This document shows, one piece after another, positions 159-59,293 of a stretch of DNA of 64,000 nt. Made by a program: the position numbers and the translations under genes. The DNA is from Paragorgia papillata (taxonomy: Eukaryota > Cnidaria > Anthozoa > Scleralcyonacea > Coralliidae), in NCBI GenBank assembly GCA_035771165.1, contig JAWNZC010000322.1:4301001-4365000 (forward strand), given 5' to 3'. Position 1 is the stretch's first letter. Each line of letters begins with the position of its first letter. The notes below the pieces were generated by a model. It had not been told where the DNA came from and did not search any database. It saw only the letters and a program-made list of their open reading frames with translations.

Positions 159-687
159 AGCCGTGGCGACAACAACCAGACAGTGAAGACTAAGTAAGAC
201 TCGACTATTCATTTGTGTTTTAAAAATAGGGTAAAGAAAATTACGAAGGGGTAAATTCAGAATATGTTACAATATCGACAAGGAAGCCATGCACAAATTA
301 CCTACCTTATCTTTTTGGTAGTATGCTTATAATCAGTTTAACTTTTGTGTCAGATTCTCGGACCAGTCCAAATATTTCAGTGTTTTCCCGTTCTTTTTTC
401 GAGGACGAGCTTGGACGTCGCACATGCGCAAAACGTTTGGCAGCGGTGTTGGTGTCCTCTTAATAGAGGTTCTCGTACCCAGGCCCCTGTCAACCTCGTA
501 CCCAGACCCATGCCCCCCCCGGATGCCAGATCTGTTTTCCCAATTATTAGAACCAATAAACGATATTCGTAATACAAATGTGTTTAACAATAACATGGAT
601 AACAAAAATTTAAAATATGATGCAAATCCCGATTGTTTGATGTCTATGCGAAGAGCAATTTAGATTAAGTTAGCTGAACGAGTACTA
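159..687 (+). repeat. Low-copy repeat copy A, left part
   Basis: This stretch matches 51119-51810 (copy B) almost base for base, apart from a MITE present only in B at 51516-51678. Its right part also matches copy C at about 58530-58787. It holds no supported gene. Its last two bases, TA at 686-687, are the left target-site duplication of the giant array. The block continues at 10697 after the array. Confidence 0.85.
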
Positions 688-769
688 CAATCCTGGACAA
701 AAGTGCTTGGGACACTATGCGAAAATCGTCAAAATCGGCAAAGTGGCCCAACAGTTTTGTCCAGGATTG
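688..769. repeat. 82-bp palindromic terminal module (first of 24)
   Basis: The two halves pair through CAATCCTGGACAAAA, then TTGGG(A/C)CACT, then around a centre near gaaaatcgtcaaaatcgg. In internal copies the pairing extends outward by another 13 bp (CGTCATTTTC on the left, GAAAATGACG on the right), giving a hairpin of about 108 bp. Because the module is nearly palindromic, a direct repeat of it is also an inverted repeat, so an element with one module at each end has terminal inverted repeats by default. Confidence 0.85.
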
Positions 770-3700
770 TCTGAAAATGACGAGTTTATGATTTTTCAAT
801 AAAACACAGCTTTTTAACTTTGTAACATTGCAAAATATATACAGTTTAATAAAAGAGCCCCCATCTCTGCTCCCCCTTACCCCCTCAATGGGGAAAGGAT
901 CACTGGAGCAGAGTCTCTGCAGAGTTCCCACCCGCACCGGTACCACCCGCACGAGAGCTCTATTTAATTTGCATATTCACCAAACCTTCTATACCCCACA
1001 AACAGTTTGTTGTTCATGCATGTGGGAGCGTATTTATGTCATTTTCGAGCAAACTGCGCAGAATCGCCGCCCCCAAATTGTTTTTTTTCCTCGATTTTGT
1101 TTAATTCGTCATTTTCTGACAATCCTGGACAAAAGTGCTTGGGACACTATGCGAAAATCGTCAAAATCGGCAAAGTGGCCCAACAGTTTTGTCCAGGATT
1201 GTCTGAAAATGACGAGTTTATGATTTTTCAATAAAACACAGCTTTTTAACTTTGTAACATTGCAAAATATATACAGTTTAATAAAAGAGCCCCCATCTCC
1301 GCTCCCCCTTACCCCCTCAATGGGGAAAGGATCACTGGAGCAGAGTCTCTGCAGAGTTCCCACCCGCACCGGTACCACCCGCACGAGAGCTCTATTTAAT
1401 TTGCATATTCACCAAACCTTCTATACCCCACAAACAGTTTGTTGTTCATGCATGTGGGAGCGTATTTATGTCATTTTCGAGCAAACTGCGCAGAATCGCC
1501 GCCCCCAAATTGTTTTTTTCCTCGATTTTGTTTAATTCGTCATTTTCTGACAATCCTGGACAAAAGTGCTTGGGACACTATGCGAAAATCGTCAAAATCG
1601 GCAAAGTGGCCCAACAGTTTTGTCCAGGATTGTCTGAAAATGACGAGTTTATGATTTTTCAATAAAACACAGCTTTTTAACTTTGTAACATTGCAAAATA
1701 TATACAGTTTAATAAAAGAGCCCCCATCTCCGCTCCCCCTTACCCCCTCAATGGGGAAAGGATCACTGGAGCAGAGTCTCTGCAGAGTTCCCACCCGCAC
1801 CGGTACCACCCGCACGAGAGCTCTATTTAATTTGCATATTCACCAAACCTTCTATACCCCACAAACAGTTTGTTGTTCATGCATGTGGGAGCGTATTTAT
1901 GTCATTTTCGAGCAAACTGCGCAGAATCGCCGCCCCCAAATTGTTTTTTTTCCTCGATTTTGTTTAATTCGTCATTTTCTGACAATCCTGGACAAAAGTG
2001 CTTGGGACACTATGCGAAAATCGTCAAAATCGGCAAAGTGGCCCAACAGTTTTGTCCAGGATTGTCTGAAAATGACGAGTTTATGATTTTTTCAATAAAA
2101 CACAGCTTTTTAACTTTGTAACATTGCAAAATATATACAGTTTAATAAAAGAGCCCCCATCTCTGCTCCCCCTTACCCCCTCAATGGGGAAAGGATCACT
2201 GGAGCAGAGTCTCTGCAGAGTTCCCACCCGCACCGGTACCACCCGCACGAGAGCTCTATTTAATTTGCATATTCACCAAACCTTCTATACCCCACAAACA
2301 GTTTGTTGTTCATGCATGTGGGAGCGTATTTATGTCATTTTCGAGCAAACTGCGCAGAATCGCCGCCCCCAAATTGTTTTTTTCCTCGATTTTGTTTAAT
2401 TCGTCATTTTCTGACAATCCTGGACAAAAGTGCTTGGGACACTATGCGAAAATCGTCAAAATCGGCAAAGTGGCCCAACAGTTTTGTCCAGGATTGTCTG
2501 AAAATGACGAGTTTATGATTTTTCAATAAAACACAGCTTTTTAACTTTGTAACATTGCAAAATATATACAGTTTAATAAAAGAGCCCCCATCTCTGCTCC
2601 CCCTTACCCCCTCAATGGGGAAAGGATCACTGGAGCAGAGTCTCTGCAGAGTTCCCACCCGCACCGGTACCACCCGCACGAGAGCTCTATTTAATTTGCA
2701 TATTCACCAAACCTTCTATACCCCACAAACAGTTTGTTGTTCATGCATGTGGGAGCGTATTTATGTCATTTTCGAGCAAACTGCGCAGAATCGCCGCCCC
2801 CAAATTGTTTTTTTTCCTCGATTTTGTTTAATTCGTCATTTTCTGACAATCCTGGACAAAAGTGCTTGGGACACTATGCGAAAATCGTCAAAATCGGCAA
2901 AGTGGCCCAACAGTTTTGTCCAGGATTGTCTGAAAATGACGAGTTTATGATTTTTCAATAAAACACAGCTTTTTAACTTTGTAACATTGCAAAATATATA
3001 CAGTTTAATAAAAGAGCCCCCATCTCCGCTCCCCCTTACCCCCTCAATGGGGAAAGGATCACTGGAGCAGAGTCTCTGCAGAGTTCCCACCCGCACCGGT
3101 ACCACCCGCACGAGAGCTCTATTTAATTTGCATATTCACCAAACCTTCTATACCCCACAAACAGTTTGTTGTTCATGCATGTGGGAGCGTATTTATGTCA
3201 TTTTCGAGCAAACTGCGCAGAATCGCCGCCCCCAAATTGTTTTTTTTCCTCGATTTTGTTTAATTCGTCATTTTCTGACAATCCTGGACAAAAGTGCTTG
3301 GGACACTATGCGAAAATCGTCAAAATCGGCAAAGTGGCCCAACAGTTTTGTCCAGGATTGTCTGAAAATGACGAGTTTATGATTTTTCAATAAAACACAG
3401 CTTTTTAACTTTGTAACATTGCAAAATATATACAGTTTAATATAAAAGAGCCCCCATCTCTGCTCCCCCTTACCCCCTCAATGGGGAAAGGATCACTGGA
3501 GCAGAGTCTCTGCAGAGTTCCCACCCGCACCGGTACCACCCGCACGAGAGCTCTATTTAATTTGCATATTCACCAAACCTTCTATACCCCACAAACAGTT
3601 TGTTGTTCATGCATGTGGGAGCGTATTTATGTCATTTTCGAGCAAACTGCGCAGAATCGCCGCCCCCAAATTGTTTTTTTTCCTCGATTTTGTTTAATTC

Positions 3701-6700
3701 GTCATTTTCTGACAATCCTGGACAAAAGTGCTTGGGACACTATGCGAAAATCGTCAAAATCGGCAAAGTGGCCCAACAGTTTTGTCCAGGATTGTCTGAA
3801 AATGACGAGTTTATGATTTTTCAATAAAACACAGCTTTTTAACTTTGTAACATTGCAAAATATATACAGTTTAATAAAAGAGCCCCCATCTCTGCTCCCC
3901 CTTACCCCCTCAATGGGGAAAGGATCACTGGAGCAGAGTCTCTGCAGAGTTCCCACCCGCACCGGTACCACCCGCACGAGAGCTCTATTTAATTTGCATA
4001 TTCACCAAACCTTCTATACCCCACAAACAGTTTGTTGTTCATGCATGTGGGAGCGTATTTATGTCATTTTCGAGCAAACTGCGCAGAATCGCCGCCCCCA
4101 AATTGTTTTTTTCCTCGATTTTGTTTAATTCGTCATTTTCTGACAATCCTGGACAAAAGTGCTTGGGACACTATGCGAAAATCGTCAAAATCGGCAAAGT
4201 GGCCCAACAGTTTTGTCCAGGATTGTCTGAAAATGACGAGTTTATGATTTTTCAATAAAACACAGCTTTTTAACTTTGTAACATTGCAAAATATATACAG
4301 TTTAATAAAAGAGCCCCCATCTCTGCTCCCCCTTACCCCCTCAATGGGGAAAGGATCACTGGAGCAGAGTCTCTGCAGAGTTCCCACCCGCACCGGTACC
4401 ACCCGCACGAGAGCTCTATTTAATTTGCATATTCACCAAACCTTCTATACCCACAAACAGTTTGTTGTTCATGCATGTGGGAGCGTATTTATGTCATTTT
4501 CGAGCAAACTGCGCAGAATCGCCGCCCCCAAATTGTTTTTTTCCTCGATTTTGTTTAATTCGTCATTTTCTGACAATCCTGGACAAAAGTGCTTGGGACA
4601 CTATGCGAAAATCGTCAAAATCGGCAAAGTGGCCCAACAGTTTTGTCCAGGATTGTCTGAAAATGACGAGTTTATGATTTTTCAATAAAACACAGCTTTT
4701 TAACTTTGTAACATTGCAAAATATATACAGTTTAATAAAAGAGCCCCCATCTCTGCTCCCCCTTACCCCCTCAATGGGGAAAGGATCACTGGAGCAGAGT
4801 CTCTGCAGAGTTCCCACCCGCACCGGTACCACCCGCACGAGAGCTCTATTTAATTTGCATATTCACCAAACCTTCTATACCCCACAAACAGTTTGTTGTT
4901 CATGCATGTGGGAGCGTATTTATGTCATTTTCGAGCAAACTGCGCAGAATCGCCGCCCCCAAATTGTTTTTTTCCTCGATTTTGTTTAATTCGTCATTTT
5001 CTGACAATCCTGGACAAAAGTGCTTGGGACACTATGCGAAAATCGTCAAAATCGGCAAAGTGGCCCAACAGTTTTGTCCAGGATTGTCTGAAAATGACGA
5101 GTTTATGATTTTTCAATAAAACACAGCTTTTTAACTTTGTAACATTGCAAAATATATACAGTTTAATAAAAGAGCCCCCATCTCTGCTCCCCCTTACCCC
5201 CTCAATGGGGAAAGGATCACTGGAGCAGAGTCTCTGCAGAGTTCCCACCCGCACCGGTACCACCCGCACGAGAGCTCTATTTAATTTGCATATTCACCAA
5301 ACCTTCTATACCCCACAAACAGTTTGTTGTTCATGCATGTGGGAGCGTATTTATGTCATTTTCGAGCAAACTGCGCAGAATCGCCGCCCCCAAATTGTTT
5401 TTTTTCCTCGATTTTGTTTAATTCGTCATTTTCTGACAATCCTGGACAAAAGTGCTTGGGACACTATGCGAAAATCGTCAAAATCGGCAAAGTGGCCCAA
5501 CAGTTTTGTCCAGGATTGTCTGAAAATGACGAGTTTATGATTTTTCAATAAAACACAGCTTTTTAACTTTGTAACATTGCAAAATATATACAGTTTAATA
5601 AAAGAGCCCCCATCTCTGCTCCCCCTTACCCCCTCAATGGGGAAAGGATCACTGGAGCAGAGTCTCTGCAGAGTTCCCACCCGCACCGGTACCACCCGCA
5701 CGAGAGCTCTATTTAATTTGCATATTCACCAAACCTTCTATACCCCACAAACAGTTTGTTGTTCATGCATGTGGGAGCGTATTTATGTCATTTTCGAGCA
5801 AACTGCGCAGAATCGCCGCCCCCAAATTGTTTTTTTCCTCGATTTTGTTTAATTCGTCATTTTCTGACAATCCTGGACAAAAGTGCTTGGGACACTATGC
5901 GAAAATCGTCAAAATCGGCAAAGTGGCCCAACAGTTTTGTCCAGGATTGTCTGAAAATGACGAGTTTATGATTTTTCAATAAAACACAGCTTTTTAACTT
6001 TGTAACATTGCAAAATATATACAGTTTAATAAAAGAGCCCCCATCTCTGCTCCCCCTTACCCCCTCAATGGGGAAAGGATCACTGGAGCAGAGTCTCTGC
6101 AGAGTTCCCACCCGCACCGGTACCACCCGCACGAGAGCTCTATTTAATTTGCATATTCACCAAACCTTCTATACCCCACAAACAGTTTGTTGTTCATGCA
6201 TGTGGGAGCGTATTTATGTCATTTTCGAGCAAACTGCGCAGAATCGCCGCCCCCAAATTGTTTTTTTTCCTCGATTTTGTTTAATTCGTCATTTTCTGAC
6301 AATCCTGGACAAAAGTGCTTGGGACACTATGCGAAAATCGTCAAAATCGGCAAAGTGGCCCAACAGTTTTGTCCAGGATTGTCTGAAAATGACGAGTTTA
6401 TGATTTTTCAATAAAACACAGCTTTTTAACTTTGTAACATTGCAAAATATATACAGTTTAATAAAAGAGCCCCCATCTCTGCTCCCCCTTACCCCCTCAA
6501 TGGGGAAAGGATCACTGGAGCAGAGTCTCTGCAGAGTTCCCACCCGCACCGGTACCACCCGCACGAGAGCTCTATTTAATTTGCATATTCACCAAACCTT
6601 CTATACCCCACAAACAGTTTGTTGTTCATGCATGTGGGAGCGTATTTATGTCATTTTCGAGCAAACTGCGCAGAATCGCCGCCCCCAAATTGTTTTTTTC

Positions 6701-9700
6701 CTCGATTTTGTTTAATTCGTCATTTTCTGACAATCCTGGACAAAAGTGCTTGGGACACTATGCGAAAATCGTCAAAATCGGCAAAGTGGCCCAACAGTTT
6801 TGTCCAGGATTGTCTGAAAATGACGAGTTTATGATTTTTCAATAAAACACAGCTTTTTAACTTTGTAACATTGCAAAATATATACAGTTTAATAAAAGAG
6901 CCCCCATCTCTGCTCCCCCTTACCCCCTCAATGGGGAAAGGATCACTGGAGCAGAGTCTCTGCAGAGTTCCCACCCGCACCGGTACCACCCGCACGAGAG
7001 CTCTATTTAATTTGCATATTCACCAAACCTTCTATACCCCACAAACAGTTTGTTGTTCATGCATGTGGGAGCGTATTTATGTCATTTTCGAGCAAACTGC
7101 GCAGAATCGCCGCCCCCAAATTGTTTTTTTTCCTCGATTTTGTTTAATTCGTCATTTTCTGACAATCCTGGACAAAAGTGCTTGGGACACTATGCGAAAA
7201 TCGTCAAAATCGGCAAAGTGGCCCAACAGTTTTGTCCAGGATTGTCTGAAAATGACGAGTTTATGATTTTTCAATAAAACACAGCTTTTTAACTTTGTAA
7301 CATTGCAAAATATATACAGTTTAATAAAAGAGCCCCCATCTCTGCTCCCCCTTACCCCCTCAATGGGGAAAGGATCACTGGAGCAGAGTCTCTGCAGAGT
7401 TCCCACCCGCACCGGTACCACCCGCACGAGAGCTCTATTTAATTTGCATATTCACCAAACCTTCTATACCCCACAAACAGTTTGTTGTTCATGCATGTGG
7501 GAGCGTATTTATGTCATTTTCGAGCAAACTGCGCAGAATCGCCGCCCCCAAATTGTTTTTTTCCTCGATTTTGTTTAATTCGTCATTTTCTGACAATCCT
7601 GGACAAAAGTGCTTGGGACACTATGCGAAAATCGTCAAAATCGGCAAAGTGGCCCAACAGTTTTGTCCAGGATTGTCTGAAAATGACGAGTTTATGATTT
7701 TTCAATAAAACACAGCTTTTTAACTTTGTAACATTGCAAAATATATACAGTTTAATAAAAGAGCCCCCATCTCTGCTCCCCCTTACCCCCTCAATGGGGA
7801 AAGGATCACTGGAGCAGAGTCTCTGCAGAGTTCCCACCCGCACCGGTACCACCCGCACGAGAGCTCTATTTAATTTGCATATTCACCAAACCTTCTATAC
7901 CCCACAAACAGTTTGTTGTTCATGCATGTGGGAGCGTATTTATGTCATTTTCGAGCAAACTGCGCAGAATCGCCGCCCCCAAATTGTTTTTTTCCTCGAT
8001 TTTGTTTAATTCGTCATTTTCTGACAATCCTGGACAAAAGTGCTTGGGACACTATGCGAAAATCGTCAAAATCGGCAAAGTGGCCCAACAGTTTTGTCCA
8101 GGATTGTCTGAAAATGACGAGTTTATGATTTTTCAATAAAACACAGCTTTTTAACTTTGTAACATTGCAAAATATATACAGTTTAATAAAAGAGCCCCCA
8201 TCTCCGCTCCCCCTTACCCCCTCAATGGGGAAAGGATCACTGGAGCAGAGTCTCTGCAGAGTTCCCACCCGCACCGGTACCACCCGCACGAGAGCTCTAT
8301 TTAATTTGCATATTCACCAAACCTTCTATACCCCACAAACAGTTTGTTGTTCATGCATGTGGGAGCGTATTTATGTCATTTTCGAGCAAACTGCGCAGAA
8401 TCGCCGCCCCCAAATTGTTTTTTTCCTCGATTTTGTTTAATTCGTCATTTTCTGACAATCCTGGACAAAAGTGCTTGGGACACTATGCGAAAATCGTCAA
8501 AATCGGCAAAGTGGCCCAACAGTTTTGTCCAGGATTGTCTGAAAATGACGAGTTTATGATTTTTTCAATAAAACACAGCTTTTTAACTTTGTAACATTGC
8601 AAAATATATACAGTTTAATAAAAGAGCCCCCATCTCTGCTCCCCCTTACCCCCTCAATGGGGAAAGGATCACTGGAGCAGAGTCTCTGCAGAGTTCCCAC
8701 CCGCACCGGTACCACCCGCACGAGAGCTCTATTTAATTTGCATATTCACCAAACCTTCTATACCCCACAAACAGTTTGTTGTTCATGCATGTGGGAGCGT
8801 ATTTATGTCATTTTCGAGCAAACTGCGCAGAATCGCCGCCCCCAAATTGTTTTTTTTCCTCGATTTTGTTTAATTCGTCATTTTCTGACAATCCTGGACA
8901 AAAGTGCTTGGGACACTATGCGAAAATCGTCAAAATCGGCAAAGTGGCCCAACAGTTTTGTCCAGGATTGTCTGAAAATGACGAGTTTATGATTTTTCAA
9001 TAAAACACAGCTTTTTAACTTTGTAACATTGCAAAATATATACAGTTTAATAAAAGAGCCCCCATCTCTGCTCCCCCTTACCCCCTCAATGGGGAAAGGA
9101 TCACTGGAGCAGAGTCTCTGCAGAGTTCCCACCCGCACCGGTACCACCCGCACGAGAGCTCTATTTAATTTGCATATTCACCAAACCTTCTATACCCCAC
9201 AAACAGTTTGTTGTTCATGCATGTGGGAGCGTATTTATGTCATTTTCGAGCAAACTGCGCAGAATCGCCGCCCCCAAATTGTTTTTTTCCTCGATTTTGT
9301 TTAATTCGTCATTTTCTGACAATCCTGGACAAAAGTGCTTGGGACACTATGCGAAAATCGTCAAAATCGGCAAAGTGGCCCAACAGTTTTGTCCAGGATT
9401 GTCTGAAAATGACGAGTTTATGATTTTTCAATAAAACACAGCTTTTTAACTTTGTAACATTGCAAAATATATACAGTTTAATAAAAGAGCCCCCATCTCT
9501 GCTCCCCCTTACCCCCTCAATGGGGAAAGGATCACTGGAGCAGAGTCTCTGCAGAGTTCCCACCCGCACCGGTACCACCCGCACGAGAGCTCTATTTAAT
9601 TTGCATATTCACCAAACCTTCTATACCCCACAAACAGTTTGTTGTTCATGCATGTGGGAGCGTATTTATGTCATTTTCGAGCAAACTGCGCAGAATCGCC

Positions 9701-10694
9701 GCCCCCAAATTGTTTTTTTCCTCGATTTTGTTTAATTCGTCATTTTCTGACAATCCTGGACAAAAGTGCTTGGGACACTATGCGAAAATCGTCAAAATCG
9801 GCAAAGTGGCCCAACAGTTTTGTCCAGGATTGTCTGAAAATGACGAGTTTATGATTTTTCAATAAAACACAGCTTTTTAACTTTGTAACATTGCAAAATA
9901 TATACAGTTTAATAAAAGAGCCCCCATCTCTGCTCCCCCTTACCCCCTCAATGGGGAAAGGATCACTGGAGCAGAGTCTCTGCAGAGTTCCCACCCGCAC
10001 CGGTACCACCCGCACGAGAGCTCTATTTAATTTGCATATTCACCAAACCTTCTATACCCCACAAACAGTTTGTTGTTCATGCATGTGGGAGCGTATTTAT
10101 GTCATTTTCGAGCAAACTGCGCAGAATCGCCGCCCCCAAATTGTTTTTTTCCTCGATTTTGTTTAATTCGTCATTTTCTGACAATCCTGGACAAAAGTGC
10201 TTGGGACACTATGCGAAAATCGTCAAAATCGGCAAAGTGGCCCAACAGTTTTGTCCAGGATTGTCTGAAAATGACGAGTTTATGATTTTTCAATAAAACA
10301 CAGCTTTTTAACTTTGTAACATTGCAAAATATATACAGTTTAATAAAAGAGCCCCCATCTCTGCTCCCCCTTACCCCCTCAATGGGGAAAGGATCACTGG
10401 AGCAGAGTCTCTGCAGAGTTCCCACCCGCACCGGTACCACCCGCACGAGAGCTCTATTTAATTTGCATATTCACCAAACCTTCTATACCCCACAAACAGT
10501 TTGTTGTTCATGCATGTGGGAGCGTATTTATGTCATTTTCGAGCAAACTGCGCAGAATCGCCGCCCCCAAATTGTTTTTTTCCTCGATTTTGTTTAATTC
10601 GTCATTTTCTGACAATCCTGGACAAAAGTGCTTGGGACACTATGCGAAAATCGTCAAAATCGGCAAAGTGGCCCAACAGTTTTGTCCAGGATTG
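688..10694. mobile_element. Giant tandem-array transposon: 23 units of ~431 bp plus a closing 82-bp hairpin module
   Basis: An 82-bp module starts at 688, 1120, 1551, 1983, 2415, 2847, 3279, 3713, 4144, 4574, 5005, 5437, 5868, 6300, 6731, 7163, 7594, 8025, 8456, 8889, 9320, 9751, 10182 and 10613. Each of the first 23 is followed by about 349 bp of near-identical sequence. The module begins CAATCCTGGACAAAA and ends TTTTGTCCAGGATTG, and its interior is also an imperfect inverted repeat. The array begins exactly at a module start and ends exactly at a module end. It is flanked by TA at 686-687 and 10695-10696. Copy B (51809-51810) and copy C (58786-58787) show the same locus with one TA and no array. 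Units differ only in a T-run of 7 or 8, one C/T site and rare indels. The recurring short reading frames in each unit are repeat artefacts. It is TA-targeting and therefore Tc1/mariner-like in target choice; the superfamily is not proven. Confidence 0.9.
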
Positions 10695-11639
10695 TAGTTA
10701 ACTTATTGTTGTTCTACAAAAAAATGATCGTCAATGGCCAATGCGCGACTGTTTGCGTCCTTGAATCTTGATTTCTTGCAACAGGTAACTGACTTTAGAA
10801 ATTGCTAAAGAAAGTTCGTCTTGTCCATGATAACGGGAGAAATCTTGCAGCATTTCTTCCCAACTTTGACGTTGGACTGACTCCAAGTCTCCAATAAATA
10901 ATAACACTGATTAACTCGAACCAAACGCAGTTTAGAAAAATATGCAAGAAAGTATACCGATTATTGTCATACATTTATTGATTTCCGTCGAGAGACATTG
11001 AAAACAAGAAAGACGCTAATCTAATCTTTACCATCTCAAGGAGAAACATATGTTAAAAATCAATGAATAAAAGAAAACGCTGTCCGCTTAGCACAAGGGA
11101 TTTGGTATCATTTTACACTGATTTGGGTGTCCGCGTCCGCTTAATAGAGGTGACCTTTGTATGGTTAATATGGGATTCAATTCGGGACTTTGGGAACTGC
11201 ATGTCCACTTAATACAGGGTGTCCGCTTAATGGAGGGCCGCTTAATACAGGTTTGACTGTAGTATATATTGATAAAGGTTTGACAGTGGGCCAAAGAAAC
11301 AATTCACTTCGGTCCCAATTTCCTATCCTCTCACAAGGAAAGTTCACAGGGTGGCTAGTTTATGATTAATAGGTATAGGAAAGTATTAATGATAAAGGCA
11401 AGAAACGTTGTAAATCAAATAGTTACTTATTAGTGTGCCACAACGACAAACCCTCACGCAAAACTCAGACATGCATGCACGGCACACGTACGTCTGGGTC
11501 TTATTTGTTACTTAAAAAAAACTATCTGTACATTATTACACAACTCCTTATTTTATACTATTGCTACTGGAAAGCTGTATTTAATACAATAACATTACCT
11601 AAGAACATTACAAGATAAGTATTGGGAAAGGCTTCTTTT

Positions 11640-20178: not shown

Positions 20179-21762
20179 ATGTTGTGTCTCAAAATTTATA
20201 ACGTAATTATTTTGTCCTTCGCATGGCTGACCATGTCTGTACCGCAAAGCTCTTCCAGTCCAGCAGAAAAAGCTTACGAACAACTAGTTAATATTGTCAT
20301 GTCGAGTCCGAAACCAAAAGGTATTCCATTTGCAGATGCAATTCCATCCCCAAAGAATTTAAATTGCCGCATTGGAATTGTTGGTGCCGGACCAGCTGGC
20401 ATTCACATGGCATATTTACTGAAGAAGAAAGGATTTAATAATATTGTTGTCCTTGAGAAGTCAGATCGTGTCGGTGGTAAATCCTACACAGTTAAACATC
20501 GAAATGTACTCCATGAAATGGGAACATGCTATACCCAACCAGATTACGAAGATAATGTGATTGCCTTGGCCAAGGAATTTGGATTATGGGAACCAGTTGA
20601 TTTGCCTTCAGCTAATGCTTGGTTGGACCAATTCCAGTCCCCAGTTCAATATTCCGACTACGTCATTGGAGAAGTCATGAAAATATTAGGAACACAAAAT
20701 CAAACTATTGCTCAGGGTAAACTGTTATTGGCCATGATTAACTATTCTGTCCTACATCGTCAATTGTTTGGCAAATATGATGGAGAACTAATGAGAAAAC
20801 CTGCTCCAAGTACAATGAACATTCTCAAGTGTACATTCAGCAAATTCCTCGCGAAATACAACCTCGAAGTTCTCAAACCAATTTTCATTGCATCCCATAC
20901 AGTACAAGGTTATGGCCATTTAGACGAGATCTCAGCCTTGTACGGTCTCATGTGGAACACACCAAACTATGTGAAAAGTCTGGCGGGAAAACTTGTCGGA
21001 AAAGATCATGCATTAAACATGATTCGTGGTGGTTTCGAAGAACTGTGGAAGACGATAAAGAACTGGGAAAACATCGATGTTCAGTTTAACACACGCATCA
21101 CGAAATTATACAGGAAATACAATAAGGTATTTGTAAAAACACACCGGCGTTCATGGTTGAAATTTGATTTCTTAATTTGGACACCAAGTTTGTATTCCAA
21201 CCTTGATATAATTCATGCCAGCCAAAAAGAAAGAGAAATCTTCTCAAAGCTCAAGCCAGTTTGGTTCACCACAACTTTGTTCGACTCAACATATGGCATA
21301 CGTGGTCTTTCACCCATTGATTACTGGATAAGCAATATTGAAAACAAACGCGAGCATTCAGTCTGGGCTCAAAGAGATTCTTATGGAGTGCTAAACAACC
21401 TTTACGGACCAGCTTATCAAAATGGATCTTTACCTGGAGAACCAGATGGAACATTCATCAGAACTGGAGTGGCGTATCAATATGGAAAAAAGCGTGCATC
21501 CCCGACAAAAATAGAGAACAGGTTTTACCAGAATTTCAAGCAAATAAAAGCTAGCGGTATTTCTGTGTTGAAACAAATCACCTGGGAATACTTTCCAAAG
21601 TTTTCTCCGCAAGAAATGGCAGATGGCGTTCTTTGGGATATCTTCGAGTTGCAAGGATTCAGGCGTACTTGGTTTGCAGGTTCATCAGTAAGTTTCGAGT
21701 CTGTAAAAAGTGTACTCGAATACAACAAGTTATTGGTGTCAAAAATGACAGAACCTTGTTAG
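20179..21762 (+). CDS. Secreted FAD-dependent amine-oxidase-like protein, intronless
   Basis: The 527-residue frame begins at a Met followed by a hydrophobic stretch (IYNVIILSFAWLTMSV), a likely signal peptide for the secretory pathway. A Rossmann FAD-binding fold follows: CRIGIVGAGPAGIHMAYLL with GAGPAG at residues 69-74, the ribose-binding Glu at E93 in VVLEK, and the downstream RVGGKSY at 97-103. The C-terminus has RRTWFAGSSVSFESV, resembling the final FAD-contact segment of flavin amine oxidases. Length fits flavin-containing amine oxidoreductases. Substrate cannot be told from the sequence; related animal proteins are often named beta-cyclopiazonate dehydrogenase-like, a transferred name. 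The whole coding region lies in one exon, preceded by a good splice acceptor, which is compatible with retroposition or horizontal acquisition followed by gain of a 5' UTR intron. The frame is intact, so it is probably functional. Confidence 0.85.
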   Translation: MLCLKIYNVIILSFAWLTMSVPQSSSSPAEKAYEQLVNIVMSSPKPKGIPFADAIPSPKNLNCRIGIVGAGPAGIHMAYLLKKKGFNNIVVLEKSDRVGGKSYTVKHRNVLHEMGTCYTQPDYEDNVIALAKEFGLWEPVDLPSANAWLDQFQSPVQYSDYVIGEVMKILGTQNQTIAQGKLLLAMINYSVLHRQLFGKYDGELMRKPAPSTMNILKCTFSKFLAKYNLEVLKPIFIASHTVQGYGHLDEISALYGLMWNTPNYVKSLAGKLVGKDHALNMIRGGFEELWKTIKNWENIDVQFNTRITKLYRKYNKVFVKTHRRSWLKFDFLIWTPSLYSNLDIIHASQKEREIFSKLKPVWFTTTLFDSTYGIRGLSPIDYWISNIENKREHSVWAQRDSYGVLNNLYGPAYQNGSLPGEPDGTFIRTGVAYQYGKKRASPTKIENRFYQNFKQIKASGISVLKQITWEYFPKFSPQEMADGVLWDIFELQGFRRTWFAGSSVSFESVKSVLEYNKLLVSKMTEPC

Positions 21763-23705: not shown

Positions 23706-25900
23706 ACGTGACAAGCTTGTAGAGCTACAACAAAAGTTTGATGAGTCGGAAAGGGAAGGAATTTTTAAGCGTCCAGGGGCCGGTTGTACGAAGGCCGGAT
23801 AGCGCTATCCACTGGATAGCGATTTTTTCAACCTTCGTAAAATTGGCCGTTGATTGTTATGACCTCAGATTAGGATTTGGTATTTATAAACTGAAGTTTT
23901 TAAGATCTATTGTGGGCTCCAGATCCGTAGTTTCACAGCTCTTCGGCCATTTTTACGAAGGTTGAAAAAATCGCTATCCAGTGAATAGCGCTATCCGGGC
24001 TTCGTACAACCGGCCCCTGAAGACATTGATGTGTCAGTGGAGTATCTTAACCCGTCATTCCTAGTTAAGAAACCTAATGGTGGTTCCCGTCTCGTTACCG
24101 CATTTGCCGATGTGGGTCGCTACTCCAAACCTGAACCCTCCTTAATGCCGGATGTGGACAGTACCTCAGTCAAAAAGCTCAGTGGAAACACATCATCGCC
24201 TCTGATTTGACTAGTGTCTTTCACCAGATTCCGCTTGCTCGAGAATCTATGAAATATTGCGGCGTGGCTACTCCTTTTCGTGGCGTACTTGTCTATGTGC
24301 GTTCGGCCATGGGTATGCCTGGGTCTGAAACCGCCCTTGAGGAACCCATGTGCCGCGTCTTAGGTGATCTCATTCAGCCAGGCGTCGTCGCCAAGATAAC
24401 CGATGATTTGTACTGCGGGGGCAGCACACCAGAGGATCTGTTATGGAATTGGTCCTTAGTGTTACAAGCCCTGCACAATTCTAACCTACGTCTGTCAGCC
24501 TCGAAGACCATCATCAACCCACGGTCCACCACCATCTTGGGATGGATCTACAAGCCAGTCCGCACCACGTTTCTACACTTGCTTCATATGCTTCACCAAA
24601 TAAAGTCGGTGGTATGAAGTCCTTTATAGGCGCGTACAAGGTCCTCGCCCGTGTAATTCCGCAATGCTCTTCTCTCCTTGCACCTCTTGATGATGTAGTT
24701 GCCGGTAAGCCATCACAAGAAGACATTAATTGGACAGACGACCTCCAGTGCGCATTCAGTAAGGCCCAAGCCACCCTCTCAACTAACCGCACCATCACAC
24801 TTCCTAGACCCGACGACCAGTTATGGATAGTAACGGACGGTGCTGTAAAGAAATCTGGAATCGCTGCCACTCTGTACATCACCCGGTCAGGCAAGGTAGC
24901 TGTCGCAGGATTTTTCAGTGCTAAGTTACGTGGTCACCAGCTACTATGGCTACCTTGTGAAGTCGAAGCCCTAGCGATTGCTGTCGCAACAAAGCACTTC
25001 TGTCCGTATATTATTCAATCTCGTCATCGGGCTGCATATACTCACCGACATGCAGTAAGCCGTGCGTACAGGCTTTTGAAACGTTATGCAGAGGGGAGTT
25101 CTCTGCTAGTCCACGCGTCTCAACGTTTTTGTCTACCGTCAACCGTCAACCGTTACCAGGCTTCTATAAGACACGTAGCCGGAGCTGCCAGCTTACCCTC
25201 CGACTTCTCAAGTCGTAATGCCCCTGAGTGCAATGATATGGCATGCATGCAGATATGCAGTTTTGTCGAACGCACGGAAGACTCCGTTGTGCGACACCTA
25301 TCAAGTGAAGAAATACTGTCTAGTCATACAAAGCTTCCCTTCACCAGTAGAGCTACGTGGTTATCAATTCAGTCCGAATGCGCCGATCTACGACGCACAC
25401 ACGCCCATTTAACACAAGGTACACAACCGTCCAAAAAGTTGACCAACGTTAAAGATGTGAAAAGATACTTAAACGTTGTGACTATTGCTAAGGATGGTCT
25501 TTTGGTCGTAAAACGTGACGAGCCATTAATTAACACCCATGAGTGTATCGTAGTAGTTCCACGACAAGTTTTGGATGGACTTTTAACTGCCCTTCATCTT
25601 CACCTCAGTCATCCAACCAGCGCCCAACTCAAGAAAGTGGTAATGCGTTATTTTTACGCTCTTGACTTAGCGAAGGCCATTGACTGCGTCACACGTGGTT
25701 GTCATGCATGTGCACTGTGCAGCCCTCCGCCGTACACCACACACTGTGATTGAGCAATCCACATCCGATCCACCAGCCGGAGTTGGAGTATCCTTCGCCG
25801 CTGATATTATTAAACGCGCTCGCCAACTTGGTACTTAGAGAATGTGTTACGTCCTACACCAAGACCATCCTTGTAGCTGACGAACGCCGGGATTTTATGT
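23706..25900 (+). pseudogene. Degenerate LTR-type retrotransposon pol (RT, RNase H, integrase zinc region)
   Basis: The coding trail begins with KLVELQQKFDESEREGIFKR (23708-23773). It is interrupted by a MITE (23777-24016) and resumes with [18 protein letters not shown] at about 24019. The reverse transcriptase follows: [44 protein letters not shown] and the catalytic ITDDLYCGG (a variant of YxDD) near 24400. Frameshifts are needed near 24161 and near 24590. RNase H is seen as VTDGAVKKSGIAATL, and an integrase-type HHCC zinc region as HLSHP...CHACALC near 25600-25720. An integrase start (GVSFAADIIKRARQL in a shifted frame) decays after 25840. No LTRs were found. It is Ty3/gypsy-like in order, with an unusual RT motif; the clade is unassigned. 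Confidence 0.8.
23777..24016. repeat. MITE GGGCCGGTTGTACGAAG inserted in the pol frame
   Basis: Arms of about 68 bp read GGGCCGGTTGTACGAAGGCC and, on the right, its complement, and include GGATAGCGCTATCC. The flanks are CAG (23774-23776) and CTG (24017-24019). Removing the element and one 3-bp flank joins AAGCGTCCAG to AAGACATT, restoring the pol frame (FKRP then EDID). Confidence 0.85.
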
Positions 25901-32800: not shown

Positions 32801-35800
32801 AGCCATATCGAGATTTTCGATTGGCACTGCACATAAAATTGTAACATTCGCCTTCAATGCATATAGCCTGGTTCACACTTGAATAAGGGAAAACAAAAGA
32901 ATGAAGTCAAGCCTGCGACACAAGGACAGTCATATAACCGTATATACTCATAAGACCATAAGCCAAGAGCAGAACAAAAGACGAAATAAAGAAAAAATCT
33001 CGTTTTGTGTTCGCAAGTCCCAGAAGAGAAGTTATGCTTTGTTTTTGTGCTTGTGCTTAATGTCGCTCGTGTGAACCAGGCTTATATGAACCCTTGTAGT
33101 TCAAGGGCAAGGGTTGCAGGAACGTCTCACTGCACATCAAAATGATACGGTATTGAAACAATTTCAAACTTACGAAGTAGTGTGTATAGCTTCGCACTTA
33201 GGCAAATTAACTGATGGCATGTCTACGTTTCTGTTTCATTATGTTCAGCGTTTTGGGAAGGTGGGATGAGGTTGGGCAATGTCGCACTGTCTTCGTCGTC
33301 TTCTGTATAACTCGGTTGCCATTCCTGTACAAGGTTAACATATTCTCTATTAACTATTTTAACTTATATTTCTATACCTTGTCCTCTGCAGATTCGGGTA
33401 AGTCAGTGAGATCTATGAACGTTGCAGTAGATATCTTGCTTTCGGCATTATTGTTTGGTGCTTTCCGTACTTTACGTTTACGCTGGGGTAACGGCTTGTG
33501 GAAGACTTTGTGATAATCCATGGCCGTTACCTTGTACCGTTTCTTCACAGGACTACTTCGCAGTAGAAGACCGTCTTCCATGGGACAACTACGACGAAGT
33601 GATTGGTGGATTTGATCGAGATTTTGAACGTCTTCTTTTAAACACTCAATTTCGTCCACATTGTAGGCAGCATCGCACACAAGACTAGCTTTTTCTCGGA
33701 TAGATTTGCGAAGGTTTGTTGATGAGGGGTGTATCAGTTTCCTCTCCTCATGCTTTTCGGGTGCAGACTGGTTTTTATGCAAGCCGTCTTCACTACCATA
33801 CAGGTGGTCGCCTTCGTTGAACATGCCATTACCTTCGTTGCACTTTTCTTCACGCTGTACTTTATCCTTGACATGCTCTGTTGTTGAATTAGCCTCGTCA
33901 CAATCAAGAGTAATAAACATGTTATTGCGATATGAGTGTGGCAATCGAGAAAAATCCCACTCATCATAAGTGTTGAACACAGCGTAGAAGTGTTTGCACG
34001 GGAAGTGTGTCCTGAACCATGCTTCACAAGTGCAACTCGGAATTTGGAGTTGAACTGAATACTTCACTGTGGTATCGCCTGAGCTTCTAACCATGAATAC
34101 ACCTGTCTCTAAATCGATGCAATCGACATCACTTTCGCGAAACTCGCCGGCCGAAAACCTACTCTTGATACAGTGCTTTATAAAATGAGAAGGACGGTTG
34201 TGTAGACTTGGAGGAATATCGTCGTTGTACGTTCTATAGGAACCACTGAGCTTAAAATTTGTGTCCTTATATTGTTGGTACGATTCTGGGATAAAGGATT
34301 CAACCAAAAGCAGAGCAATGCCAAACGCCGATTTATCAACTGATCTCGGTAGATAATTGTACTTGAAATGTTTGTTCTGTGCTTCTACGCCATTGTTGGT
34401 ATTCACTATATTAAGCACTTGCTGTTTGCGAAAAGCTTGAGCCCAACGTTCAGCGCACGACACCCACACGTTTTCTACATAATCTTGAACATTGCTGTTG
34501 GTAGTGTAAACTCTTGATTTTCGCAGTTCTGCTAGAGCAATATTATAAAGACTCAACTTACGCGCGTTAGCTACCCGTTGCAGAAGAGCTGTGAGAATCT
34601 CTTGTTCTTTCGAATTGAGACCATTTTTTCCAGTATGAACCCATCGGTGCCACGCCTGCTTTCGGTGGAAATCGCATATATAGACAAGGGCATCTGGAAA
34701 TTCTTTTTCTAGTGCATTGATCTCAGCCAACGAGTAATCCACCATAAAATACGAGGGACTCCAACCGATGTTCCATCCTTTAATGACAGCAAGTGCCTCA
34801 GATATAGACTCGGCATCCTCATTTTCGCAAATGAACTCTGCGACGACTTTATAGCCCACGTTGGTGTGCACACAAACGAAAAATAGCGGAAGTGCATACT
34901 TTGTGGTCTTGTAGGTAGCATCAAGTAGAACCAGATCTGACCTGTACCTTCTCAGGAGTCTCTGCTGCCACATTTCTTGGTGTACAAAAAGAAACTTGCC
35001 ACTGCAGGTCTTTTTACTGGCGCTGTGACTTTTCGGTCTGTAAAAGAAATTTCCAGTGGTCATTGTCTGCCATTCGTTGACCTTCTGACGAAGTGACTCT
35101 TGGTCATCCTTATTTGACTTCGAGGTCGCGATAGCTCTTGCGATATGATTTCGTAAGTCTTGCCTGGTTGGGTAATACTTACGATTCGTTTTCTTGGGCC
35201 GTCCATCAGGCCGTGAAATGTCTACAAATAGCTCTCTCTCAACAAATTCCTCGACACACCGCTTTACCTCCTCGGGACGGGTTACACCCTTGTGCACAAG
35301 TTCGTAAATCTTTTCGATGACTCTTCTATCCACACAATGGTTAATAGTGGCAGCATCTCCCAGCCGGTGGTTTTTATGCTCGTTACATAAAGGTATCTTT
35401 ACACAGTAGCGCATGACTGTAGATAAACTTTTGGTAGGGTTGTGCATGTCTTCCTTTAGTTGATCGAAAACCTTTTTCTTTGCCAATTTAAGACTGTTAG
35501 CTGTCCCACATAAAGACTGTTCGACCTGATATTCATGGAAGACTTTGATCCCTCTTATTTGAATGACGGCGGGACAATCCATTTTTCGAGTTCCTTGAAA
35601 CTTTTGGTAGTGTACCGTACACTCATCATGGTCATGGTTCTGTGGGTCTTTATGTGTTTTTGTCCCACCTCGGGAGTCCTGAAATTATGAGAGAAAGACA
35701 TTATCTACAGCGATCAGGTCACATTTGTATTTAAAGGGCATATGACTCGAAAATTAAGTTTGTCTTATTGAAAAGAACATTTAAAATGATAAAATAACAT

Positions 35801-51118: not shown

Positions 51119-51515
51119 TAGCCGTGGCGACAACAACCAGACAGTGAAGACTAAGTAAGACTCGACTATTCATTTGTGTTTTAAAAAAAGGGTAAAGAAA
51201 ATTACGAAGGGGTAAATTCAGAATATGTTACAATATCGACAAGGAAGCCATGCACAAATTACCTACCATATCTTTTTGGTAGTATGCTTATAATTTTAAC
51301 TTTTGTGTCGGACTCTCGGACCTGTCCAAATATTTCAGTGTTTTCCCGCTCTTTTTTCGAGGACGAGCTTGGACGTCGCACATGCGCAAAACGTTTGGCA
51401 GCGGTGTTGGTGTCCTCTTAATAGAGGTTCTCGTATCCAGGCCCCTGTCAACCTCGTAGCCAGACCAATGCCCCCCCGGATGCCAGATCGGTTTTCCCAA
51501 TTATTAGAACCAATA

Positions 51516-51678
51516 GAGCGTTTTCACTCACGTGATCGGTGGCCCCATGGGGGTGGTGAAACAATACGAAATATTTGAATAAGAAAGAGCTAATTCCCAT
51601 ACCGTACACCAATATGGCCGCCATTTCATTGTTTTGGTACACCAATATGGCCGCCGTGACGTCAGATGAAAACGCTCT
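51516..51678. repeat. MITE GAGCGTTTTCACTC, insertion specific to copy B
   Basis: Ends GAGCGTTTTCACTCACGTGA and tgacgtcagatgaaaacgct are inverted. ATA flanks both sides (51513-51515 and 51679-51681). Copy A reads ccaataaacgat without it at 555-566. Confidence 0.85.
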
Positions 51679-54395
51679 ATAAACGATATTCGTAATACAA
51701 ATGTGTTTAACAATAATATGGATAACAAAAATTTAAAATATGATGCAAATCCCGATTGTTTGATGTCTATGCGAAGAGCAATTTAGATTAAGTTAGCTGA
51801 ACGAGTACTAGTCAACTTATTGTTGTTCTACAAAAAAATGATCGTCAATGGCCAATGCGCGACTGTTTGCGCCCTTGAATCTTGATTTCTTGCAACAGGT
51901 AACTGACTTTAGAAATTGCTAAAGAAAGTTCGTCTTGTCCATGATAACGGGAGAAATCTTGCAGCATTTCTTCCCAACTTTGACGTTGGACTGACTCCAA
52001 GTCTCCAATAAATAATAACAACGATTAACTCGAACCAAACGCAGTTTAGAAAAATATGCAAGAAAGTATACTGATTATTGTCATACATTTATTGACTTCC
52101 GTCGTGGGACATTGAAAACAAGAAAGACGCTAATCTAATCTTTACCATCTCAAGGAGAAAATATGTTAAAAATCAATGAATAAAAGAAAACGCTGTCCGC
52201 TTAGCACAAGGGATTTGGTATCGTTTTACACTGATTTAGGTGTCCGCGTCCGCTTAATAGAGGTGACCTTTGTATGGTTAATATGGGATTCAATTCGGGA
52301 CTTTGGGAACTGTCCGCTTAATACAGAGTGTCCGCTTAATGGAGGGCCGCTTAATACAGGTTTGACTGTGGTATATATTGATAAAGGTTTGACAGTGAGC
52401 CAAAGAAACAATTCACTTCGGTCCCAGTTTCCTATCCTCTCACAAGGAAAGTTCACAGGGTGGCTAGTTTATGATTAATAGGTATAGGAAAATATTAATG
52501 ATAAAGGCAAGAAACGTTGTAAATCAAATAGTTACTTATTAGTGTGCCACAACGACAAACCCTCACGCAAAACTCAGACATGCGCGGCACACGTATACGT
52601 CTGGGTCTTATTTGTTACTTAAAAAAAACTATCCGTACATTATTACAAAACTCCTTATTTTATACTATTGCTACTGGAAAGCTGTTTAATACAATAACAT
52701 TACCTAAGAACATTACAAGATAAATATTTGGAAAGGCTTCTTTTGATGAGGTACCCTGCGAGCAGAGCCTTCTTTTCCTTATTTCTTCGCTGAGAGAAAG
52801 GAAGAAAAGTAGGCTCTGCTGTATTCGATTGGGACTGGGTTCGAGATTGTAACCAAGCAACTGACATGCATGCGCAATGGAAACCAGTCACGAATACAGC
52901 AGAGCCTACTTTTCTTCCTCTCCCTCAGCGAAGAAATAAGGAAAAGAAGGCTCTGCTCGCAGGGTATTGATGAGGCGGTTACTTTAAGAAAGGCAATGTT
53001 CAAAAAGACAATTACTCGCAAGAGCCGGAAGTTTAATTTCATCCCGTCTTACAGGGCGGTGCCGTGCCTATTGTTTCCGCACGAACAAACGAACTACCAA
53101 ACGAACTCAGTCACAGGCAGAATTGAATATAAAGGCTGTTTTCAATTACGTCCGCTTTGCACGCGCGGGTGGAACGTGCATTGTTCAGTTCGCTAGCTTT
53201 GGAAGTTGAAAATTTCCGCTCCGCCCGCGCAAATCGCACGTATAATAATGGACAACGGCCTCAAAGCTGCTAAAAGCACCCCAAATTCCTATGTCCATTT
53301 ACACTATGCAATTAGTAAATTAAGGTTTGTGTTGGGGTCAAACCTGCACGAATTAGTGCCTGGGTCATAAATGCAGAACATGGTATAATTACCTGAAACG
53401 TTTGCGGTATGTACAGTAGTTCCTCCCAGCATGTGCTACATGCATACATCAGTGGATGTTGTTCTCTCTTGTTATACGTAAACAGTAAAATATGTTGTTC
53501 CTTTCAAGTGTTGGATTTTTTTGTCTGATGATCGGCTTTCTGCCTTGTAGATAGCCAATATAATTTGAGGGATTTGAAATATTTCCAACTTTCAAAGCCC
53601 GCCTCGCCCGCGCGGGCAAAGCAAGTAAGGGAAAACAGTCTTCATGCCTCTATATATTTCAGTCTAGCCAACAACATGCAGACGATTTGGCTGTACGTCT
53701 ATAGCTGAAATTGGTTAAATCTTATTATTGTTACTAAATTTAAAATATGTTCAGTTTTAATTTCACATTTGATCGATAGTTTTTGTAGTGACTTTCTTCC
53801 GAGATGAGGGACATTACATGATTATGGGGGCTTTCCATTTACACGCGGTTAGACGTGTATAGAAGTATAGAACACGTAAAGAACAAAAATTCTGGTTAGT
53901 AAATAAAGATGTTATCGTGTCCTAAATCTTGTGTCCTAAGTGTCTTAAAAGCTGTTCAGGTGAGCATGCATGCATGCATGCATGCACAGATATAGCTCAG
54001 TCGTTATTAGACTTAAAATCATTGATTAGAAGGTTTGAGTTGAGCGCAGACGATAGACGTACGTCGTTCCCAAACGTGGGACTAAATTTAACTCCAAAAA
54101 TATATAAAGTAATATTTAACTCCGGAAAATCGACTATTCTGAACTTTTCTGTGATTCCAATTTAATAAATAAACAAATAGCACAAAAAAGCCAGCAGTTG
54201 TACAAAACACTATAACGACATATGCAGCCGTGTATAATTAAATTATGGCGTAGCTAACCCTTTACAGGGCAGAATACCAAGGTCTCCACTTGTCGAGTAA
54301 AATCATCTGGCCTTAGCCAGAGTAAAAGTAATAAGTTGCCAAATGGCAACCATGCATGCCCGGTAAAGGGTTAACTATACCTCAAACAACAGTTG

Positions 54396-58504: not shown

Positions 58505-59293
58505 CTCCTGGGTAGCTTAATGGAGGTGTCCTCTTAATAGAGGTTCTCGTACCCAGGCCCCTGTCAACTTCGTACCCAGACCAAGGCCCCCCCTCCCTCC
58601 CCCCCCCCCCCCCCCCCCGATGCCAGATACGGTTTTTCCAATTATTAGAACCAATAAACGATATTCGTAATACAAATGTCTTTAACAATAACATGAATAA
58701 CAAAAATTAAAATATGATGCAAATCCCGATTATTTGATGTCTATGCGAAGAGCAATTTAGATTAAGTTTATTACTGAACGAGTACTAGTCAACTTATTGT
58801 TGTTCTACAAAAAAATGATCGTCCATGCGCGACTGTTTGCGCCCTTGAATCTTGATTTCTTGCAACAGGTAACTGACTTTAGAAATTCCAACTTTGACGT
58901 TGGACTGACTCTCCAATAAATAATAACACTGATTAACTCGAACCAAACGCAGTTTAGAAAAATATGCAAGAAAGTATACTGATTATTGTTGTGACGAATG
59001 TAAATTAACAATTAGCAGAATTAGCGCGTAAAAGCATGATATAGCAAATTGCGGTAAACGCTCCCTTTCCTGTAACACCCTTCCTTTACATAGGTCATGT
59101 ATATACGTAGTAGTTGTATTTCTATATTTGGTTATATGTTTGTAACGCCCAACTTGGGCCTAGGGTATAAAAGTAACGAGACTGTTAAAATAAAGAGAGG
59201 TTCTGTCTGACTGAAAGTCGTGAAGTCTGTTGATTGGGTAGCTCGGTACGTTACAAATCTGGTGGCAGCGGTAAAGCATTAAACATCCAGAAA

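Follow-up and report, generated by a model that had tools for sequence, protein, structure and literature searches.

The window analysed here is the whole stretch of 64,000 nucleotides taken from the Paragorgia papillata assembly GCA_035771165.1 (contig JAWNZC010000322.1, positions 4,301,001 to 4,365,000, forward strand). It sits in a 10.5 Mb contig and carries a 10,007-bp tandem array built from two alternating parts, an 82-bp hairpin module, here called H, and a spacer of about 350 bp, here called I. We write each insertion as (H-I)n-H, where n is the number of H-I units. The array at 688-10694 is (H-I)23-H, with 24 copies of H alternating with 23 near-identical copies of I, and Tandem Repeats Finder returns it as 687-10695 with a period of 431 and 23.2 copies. 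The features are:

686..687, no strand: left TA of the target duplication (full site C-TA-G), a single TA in the two empty sites
688..10694, plus strand: the whole insertion, (H-I)23-H, 10,007 bp, from the H copies and the unit alignment
688..769, plus strand: first H, 82 bp, outer 15 bp CAATCCTGGACAAAA perfectly inverted
770..1119, plus strand: first I, 350 bp, starting TCTGA and ending TCTGA
1120..10612, plus strand: units 2-23, 22 further H-I units of 430-434 bp each
10613..10694, plus strand: last H
10695..10696, no strand: right TA of the target duplication
51809..51810, no strand: single TA of paralogous empty site 1 (flanks 51679-53796)
58786..58787, no strand: single TA of paralogous empty site 2 (flanks 58525-58887)

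The copies of H, spaced 430-434 bp apart, are 100% identical (24/24), and their outer 15 bp, CAATCCTGGACAAAA...TTTTGTCCAGGATTG, form perfect terminal inverted repeats. Folded as DNA, H reaches -28.8 kcal/mol against -7.9 +/- 2.1 for 200 shuffles, a near-perfect hairpin. Aligned with one another, the 23 units vary in six columns, of which one is a substitution, and fall into eight distinct sequences. Their spacers all end in TCTGA where most other elements that we read have TCAGA, an A-to-T change, and no junction in this array lacks H. An earlier note on this DNA had proposed that the array begins and ends at the hairpin with TA on both sides, and that two paralogous copies of the locus carry an uninterrupted single TA; both statements hold. 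The left flank aligns to 51679-51810 at 99.2% identity and the right flank to 51809-53796 at 97.2%, the two alignments sharing exactly the TA at 51809-51810. The second empty site is a paralogue aligned over 58525-58787 (85%) and 58786-58887 (91%), with the TA at 58786-58787 as the overlap. The empty sites read C-TA-G and the occupied site reads C-TA-[array]-TA-G; because the flank alignments overlap by exactly the single TA, the two empty sites are real. Their discovery was possible because, within 60 kb, there are three diverged versions of the sequence that surrounds the insertion (window 51119-53796 and 58525-58989). What lies between the two copies of TA is one insertion, and the inserted element is oligomeric and non-autonomous and has Tc1-type features. 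In it H plays three parts: it forms both ends and also connects each unit to the next.

The same organization recurs across the genome (618 Mb in 473 contigs). The left end, taken as TA plus H (25 letters, at most one mismatch), has 1262 + 1266 matches, and a reversed control has none. We read 9.9 kb at each of 20 consecutive left-end sites, the first 20 among 100 sites listed; all were chosen by an exact left end, a choice that misses decayed copies. Sixteen of the 20 are complete (H-I)n-H elements with H and TA at both ends, n being 0, 1, 2, 5, 8 or 9. Four are solo H, or n = 0 (L033, L034, L044 and L047; L033 and L034 have flanking letters in common and may be one duplicated locus), six have n = 1 (L029, L031, L037, L038, L041 and L048), three have n = 2 (L030, L040 and L043), and n = 5, 8 and 9 occur once each (L039, L035 and L032). 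Three further sites (L036, L042 and L046) extend past the fetched stretch with more than 20 units each, and for two of these a TA-flanked end lies further on (L049, and C14:7183240 beyond an unread stretch). The remaining site, L045, is truncated inside I. These relatives bear out the earlier note's view of a satellite-like array with transposon boundaries, for which it had suggested counting units at other loci with the same 82-bp ends; arrays running past the terminal module, which it had named as contrary evidence, were sought and are absent from the 16 complete elements.

Twenty chosen loci (17 top matches to the window, one of which overlaps L046, and three left-end sites overlapping L029-L031) follow the same plan wherever the fetched stretch does not cut them, with an H-less junction in L018 and L019. 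Positions 1-1041 of L019 (C82:644500-647200) hold a Tc1-like transposase frame that adjoins the inserted element and is 46% identical to the C324 transposase described below. Inner H, searched as CAGA-H-TCTGA with at most three mismatches, has 721 + 578 matches genome-wide and none in the control, and forms runs on C272 and on C314, the latter from 1401175 to beyond 1443132. From the spacing of outer ends divided by 431, we estimate about 41 units at C14:7165650-7183325 (far part unread) and about 42 at C390:718745-737026 (letters unread). Unit number across insertions spans 0 to over 100, and satellite-type head-to-tail arrays with homogenized units are found at 10.0 kb in the window and at 45.6 kb, with 129 units, on C14. 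These arrays do not end as a satellite without a transposon signature would: they stop at H with TA.

Counting H ends with a TA and with twelve bases of flank (L020, L025-L028 and L033 left out), 63 of 64 have C in front of the TA, so the target is CTAG. Spacers joined to each other with no H between them give 363 forward and 350 reverse matches genome-wide; since all 36 such sites in the loci that we read matched on both strands, the number of H-less sites is nearer 360 than 700. Junctions of 4-8 bases contribute 92 + 83 matches, reading CATG at all but three among the matches listed. The 45.6-kb array (C14:1615097-1660740) has CAG instead of inner H, with 127 CAG junctions (100 among the matches listed and 27 in L042) between its 129 spacers; its ends are H with TA on both sides, and a second H is retained at one end. 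One array on C64 mixes H, CAG, CATG and CAATC junctions. Taken overall, H-less junctions are short and for the most part read CATG or CAG. We infer that CATG and CAG are probably transposase scars; the footprint length given for Tc1/mariner elements is 2-4 bp (PMC7913693).

Other routes to these junctions were considered and rejected. The model cited in two reviews (PMC12628747, PMC9659126), a double insertion in which one element uses the target of the other, is rejected for the inner junctions that we read, where H is flanked by GA/TC (CAGA...TCTG) and not by TA...TA. Later insertion of H into an array of bare spacers would leave a TA duplication, which is absent, and the common H-less junction retains CA..TG, the outer bases of H. 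Loss of H through slippage between direct repeats is a misfit for CATG, as on our own reading there are no matching bases across the join.

A probable partner was identified from a unit on C324 (L067 and the adjacent L068) and not from a scan of flanks. A search near the first 100 H left ends turned up no transposase, and when 16 flanks upstream of transposases were compared with shuffles, one stood above them (L062, 16/20 bases; shuffle maximum 14), with the flank of L064 (14/20; shuffle maximum 15) resembling it but within chance. The C324 unit has a 276-bp module, H*, with ends CAATCCTGGACAAAA...GGCCAGGATTG, to which H aligns as an internally deleted form, and the inner flanks of H* are the same, TCAGA/TCTGA. 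Within paired CTA/TAG ends it encodes a Tc1-type transposase of 362 residues and, on the opposite strand, a Rep-like open reading frame (ORF) of 446 residues. The transposase matches the Pfam families DDE_3 (PF13358) at 3.5e-13 and HTH_Tnp_Tc3_2 (PF01498) at 5.1e-7 (30.3 bits, just under the cut-off of 31.5). The Rep-like ORF matches PPV_E1_C at 1.5e-4 and Parvo_NS1 at 0.012, superfamily 3 (SF3)-type helicase families, in both cases below the cut-off. Among 50 of its homologues, matches at E<=0.1 name Parvo_NS1 in 37/50 (best 2.4e-6), REP_ORF2-G2P in 14/50, Rep_OBD in 6/50 and Gemini_AL1 in 1/50. A profile of these homologues, compared with the PDB, matches SIRV1 ORF119, a Rep nuclease (E=0.028, covering the HUH region), and papillomavirus E1 (E=0.46). 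Residues E59, H61, Y109, Y115, K118 and K303 are present in 50/50, and H72, H74 and D340 in 49/50; these supply an HUH motif (H72/H74) with candidate catalytic tyrosines (Y109 and Y115), and the Walker A (K303) and Walker B (D340) motifs of an SF3 helicase. The frame is accordingly predicted to be a protein with the motifs of a rolling-circle Rep, an HUH-type endonuclease joined to an SF3 helicase. The C324-type unit, whose transposase is linked to the 82-bp-H element by common end sequence and flanks, is probably the autonomous partner of that element. Its Rep has 249 homologues, of which 120 are listed; the three with organism names among those listed come from the stony corals Porites harrisoni, Porites lobata and Oculina patagonica, and the two named transposase homologues come from other cnidarians; judged by these names, the host would probably be a coral. 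Two pattern scans of IMG/VR returned no relatives of the Rep, and none turned up in PHROGs.

Transposase and Rep genes are commonly found together. The genome has 150 scored matches to the Tc1-type helix-turn-helix domain (PF01498), many in runs about 4 kb apart. With 77 of 150 transposase places and 59 of 103 Rep places typed, an opposite-strand Rep lies 2529-2851 bp away at 52 of the 77, in 43 of these 52 at 2839-2851 bp; the 25 typed places lacking a Rep include other Tc1-like families. The pairs include two (C340:1077030 and C354:7346247) in which the Rep is only 62-63% identical. Other assemblies provide indirect evidence: 10 contig sizes are common to the Rep and transposase homologue lists, against a mean of 1.4 and a maximum of 7 in 2000 trials with jittered sizes. 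At C294:186957-191208 one n = 1 span contains both genes, and their matched frames are both free of stops.

The partner's boundaries follow the form (H*-T)n-H*, T standing in the place of I. At no more than one mismatch there are 21 left ends (CTA plus H*) and 37 right ends, other subfamilies included, and 18 of the 21 left ends have a matching right end, with spans of 269 bp to 55,234 bp. Of these 18, four consist of H* alone (276, 276, 275 and 269 bp) and five have about the length of one unit (4279, 4268, 4246, 4141 and 3747 bp). The others are a span of 4 units (16,284 bp), a 545-bp derivative and seven spans of 17 to 55 kb, and the long ones are mostly known as match positions and not as letters. 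The C368 span (3747 bp) has a mismatch within TA itself at both ends, and the left ends on C91, C127 and C145 are unpaired, the left flank on C145 being CTG. On C324, periods of about 4003 and 3730 bp differ by 273, the length of H* minus a 3-bp scar, a value taken from match positions with the junction letters unread.

Several partner loci deserve separate description. The 545-bp derivative (C259:1031057-1031607), known from its end positions, is bounded by CTA...TAG with H* at both ends. The array at C9:2041052-2080206, which has a single left and a single right boundary, includes units of either orientation: its transposase matches are on the minus strand up to 2064022 and on the plus strand from 2065311. 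At C354:7203320-7218055 and C187:547851-565644, Rep fragments of uniform length recur every 2.7-3.0 kb and every ~2.8 kb, respectively. These arrays consist of internally deleted partner units, so the deletion forms have in turn been amplified. There is also a second Rep family, with 60% identity to the first; head-to-tail pairs of it lie at C213:1112144 and 1115825 (3.7 kb apart) and at C368:637819 and 641744 (3.9 kb apart), and on C261 at 757004 and 772243 (15.2 kb apart).

The two ends of an insertion are unusually alike. Across 15 n = 1 insertions, nine of them picked as best window matches, the paired end H differ by 9 substitutions in total, whereas shuffled pairings have a mean of 26.1 and a minimum of 14 in 20,000 (p=5e-5); in 11 multi-unit elements there are 3 substitutions against 17.2 in shuffled pairings. 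The test takes L021, L022, L023 and L046 by their fetched part and omits L018, L019, L030, L036, L042, L049, L050 and L051. At six positions selected after inspection, both ends carry the same non-reference state in 12 of 14 cases at n = 1 and in 9 of 11 among multi-unit elements. A rearranged, one-off duplicated form of H, present in L030, has six genome matches (as a pattern, at most one mismatch) at only two loci. The three on C3 are all three H of the n = 2 element L030, which was read; the three on C216, at spacings of 476 and 45 with letters unread, we interpret as an n = 1 element in which one H has undergone another duplication.

The spacers of the window array are likewise homogeneous. 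All 23 units carry the I variants 127A, 236G and 348T (alignment columns 160, 315 and 475), and the 348T junction is found genome-wide 23 times in this array and once on C311, in a unit without the other two variants. Divergence of I averages 0.0009 within the array versus 0.0092 to the nearest other sampled element, and the 23 units form a clade in the unit tree (support 0.948). Given the private variants, the low divergence and the clade, the window array arose from one template.

The best explanation, to which we assign a probability of about 0.56, is that the partner's Rep amplifies the element into a concatemer, of which the transposase inserts an H-to-H piece. An excised circle, or a circle with one H, would be copied by Rep into a head-to-tail concatemer, and the transposase would then cut outside any pair of H copies, at their outer edges, and place the piece into CTAG in one event. 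Because any two copies could be cut, n would be 0 (a solo H), 1 or many, and all H of an insertion would initially be identical. Once inserted, the array would sometimes be cut internally by the transposase, so that an H or a piece running from one H to another is lost and CATG or CAG stays behind; unequal exchange would further alter unit number. The 82-bp H, as a shortened H*, would use both proteins in trans. This model would explain the free choice of n, the solo ends, the like ends and the homogeneous arrays. The earlier note had offered two possibilities, that 10 kb moved at once or that a small element expanded in place. A single TA-bounded insertion is confirmed by the empty sites; of the two histories, we somewhat favour insertion of a ready-made concatemer because the partner encodes a Rep-like protein, unit number is so widely spread and the ends are so alike, taken together.

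Several observations weigh against insertion of a concatemer. No circle, nick site or origin was identified, and both enzymes are known from sequence only. The spacer I and the partner's interior have only TCTGA...TCAGA in common, so action in trans is assumed. The Rep domain matches are weak, falling below Pfam cut-offs in the two members shown; the same scan at E<=0.1 also names plainly unrelated families, so lone weak matches mean little; and a precomputed Parvo_NS1 assignment exists for 5 of the 120 listed Rep homologues. Only 6 of 16 multi-unit elements have I copies that diverge less among themselves than from the nearest other element, although that nearest distance is the minimum over all other units and hence a hard yardstick, and 7 of 15 multi-unit elements (L036 left out) are not monophyletic in the unit tree. 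L039 consists of two unit types arranged in blocks, and L036 is strongly mixed, with a within-element divergence of 6.4% (0.064). On C174 the outer H have a common variant that the listed inner H lack. The one substitution in the window array occurs in units 2, 3, 6 and 18, which indicates exchange between units, and expansion in place would also predict that the window's private variants are missing elsewhere. As a separate observation, L036 (C6:23341-33241) has near-identical units beside units 83-90% alike and may be an old array or a patchwork.

Expansion in place is the main rival, though we consider it unlikely as the full account. The starting point would be an H-I-H monomer inserted into a CTAG site; its H copies are direct repeats, and unequal homologous recombination among them would have produced solo H and longer arrays, in the manner of solo long terminal repeats (LTRs) and tandem LTR elements, with no part for a Rep. 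The geometry suits it: the units are direct repeats linked by a common H, as in tandem LTR elements (PMC11899658). The private I variants of the window units are not found together elsewhere, as expected of a mutated monomer amplified on the spot; exchange is visible in the block-mixed L039 and in scattered single substitutions; and H-less I-CAG units reach 127 junctions in the C14 array. Set against this, the two ends of an n = 1 insertion match each other better than ends paired by shuffling do, and the duplicated H occurs several times at each of two loci, so expansion in place would need repeated conversion of both ends, or the release of new elements from homogenized arrays. Nor does it assign any function to the Rep-like gene, whose position in the partner is constant.

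Growth driven by the transposase itself seems improbable as the main process. Here, cuts at inner H would be followed by gap repair from the sister or neighbouring units, and misalignment by whole units would lengthen the array. The CATG and CAG scars lie at inner H positions at several loci, with several kinds in one array; Tc1/mariner elements are described as leaving footprints of 2-4 bp (PMC7913693). Such a process yields scars and changes of length, but by itself it leaves the like ends at n = 1 and the solo H unexplained, and the window array has no H-less junction at all. Unequal exchange and transposase-induced repair probably act alongside concatemer insertion, and alone could be sufficient. 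That the assembler inflated or misplaced the array is barely credible, prone as near-identical repeats are to mis-assembly, given that both flanks match continuous paralogous empty sites, the same organization occurs at many other loci in two element classes, and the units show small differences.

Elsewhere, the window also contains an amine-oxidase-like ORF (20179-21762), a reverse-transcriptase RNase H/integrase fragment of a retroelement (24542-25753) and a MULE/ZSWIM-like ORF (33372-35582).

The birth of satellites from transposons is an open question, for which several routes are proposed in two reviews (PMC12628747, PMC9659126). The genome studied here shows, side by side and with readable boundaries, isolated ends, single and double units, arrays longer than 40 kb and arrays whose junctions look like scars, and the probable partner supplies a candidate amplification enzyme. 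More broadly, we suggest a class of animal mobile element equipped with both a Tc1-type transposase and a rolling-circle Rep, which would amplify circles into concatemers and insert H-to-H pieces of any n at CTAG; arrays would then be the direct product of one transposition and deleted hairpin elements would exploit both enzymes; on present evidence we regard this wider proposal as evenly poised. If it is true, one transposition can plant tens of kilobases of homogeneous repeats, and cut-and-paste transposition and rolling-circle replication, normally separate routes of mobility, are joined. Such a pairing could explain the conversion of jumping genes into tandem repeats.

In the open-licence literature we found no description of a Tc1-type transposase joined to a Rep or helicase gene, and the system is best placed by its likeness to several known ones. 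With the Tc1/mariner (IS630-Tc1-mariner) group and miniature inverted-repeat transposable elements (MITEs) it has in common the TA duplication, seen in the window and at both ends of the 16 complete elements, the inverted CAATCC...GGATTG ends, short scars that may be excision footprints and, in the probable partner, a Tc1-type DDE transposase with DDE_3 and HTH_Tnp_Tc3_2. It differs from them in that its ends are whole hairpin modules common to successive units, and in its CTAG target, its oligomeric insertions of widely varying length and the Rep-like protein of its partner. HUH-Rep/SF3 replication proteins are found in the related groups of circular Rep-encoding single-stranded (CRESS) DNA viruses, parvoviruses and plasmids. 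The protein described here likewise combines HUH-type and helicase motifs within one polypeptide, as far as its sequence tells, but unlike the viral and plasmid proteins it is encoded inside a chromosomal Tc1-type transposon.

Satellites born from MITEs, including a Tc1/mariner MITE with an internal array, are described in two reviews (PMC12628747, PMC9659126). Of these, Xenopus miDNA4 (a Tc1/mariner MITE) and Xstir resemble our element in bearing tandem repeats of variable copy number; as those texts present them, the repeats are internal to one MITE, whereas here the terminal module recurs in every unit. Tandem LTR elements with one target duplication around the array (PMC11899658) and Cassandra arrays (PMC7215508) bring the tandem LTR retrotransposons and terminal-repeat retrotransposons in miniature (TRIMs) close in layout, with a plan of (terminal repeat - internal)n - terminal repeat, one target-site duplication and solo terminal repeats. 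Unlike these reverse-transcriptase-type elements, ours is a DDE DNA transposon: H is a hairpin with inverted ends, the module of 82 bp or 276 bp is bounded by those ends, the partner encodes a DDE transposase, and the amplification that we propose is by Rep. Concatemers of Sleeping Beauty transgenes are reported to have arisen by non-canonical integration (PMC3271037). Teratorn, a piggyBac element fused with a herpesvirus, is a further case of a cut-and-paste transposon joined to virus-like replication genes (PMC10175614); the system described here differs in having a unit of ~4 kb with one Rep-like gene that is found in multi-unit insertions.

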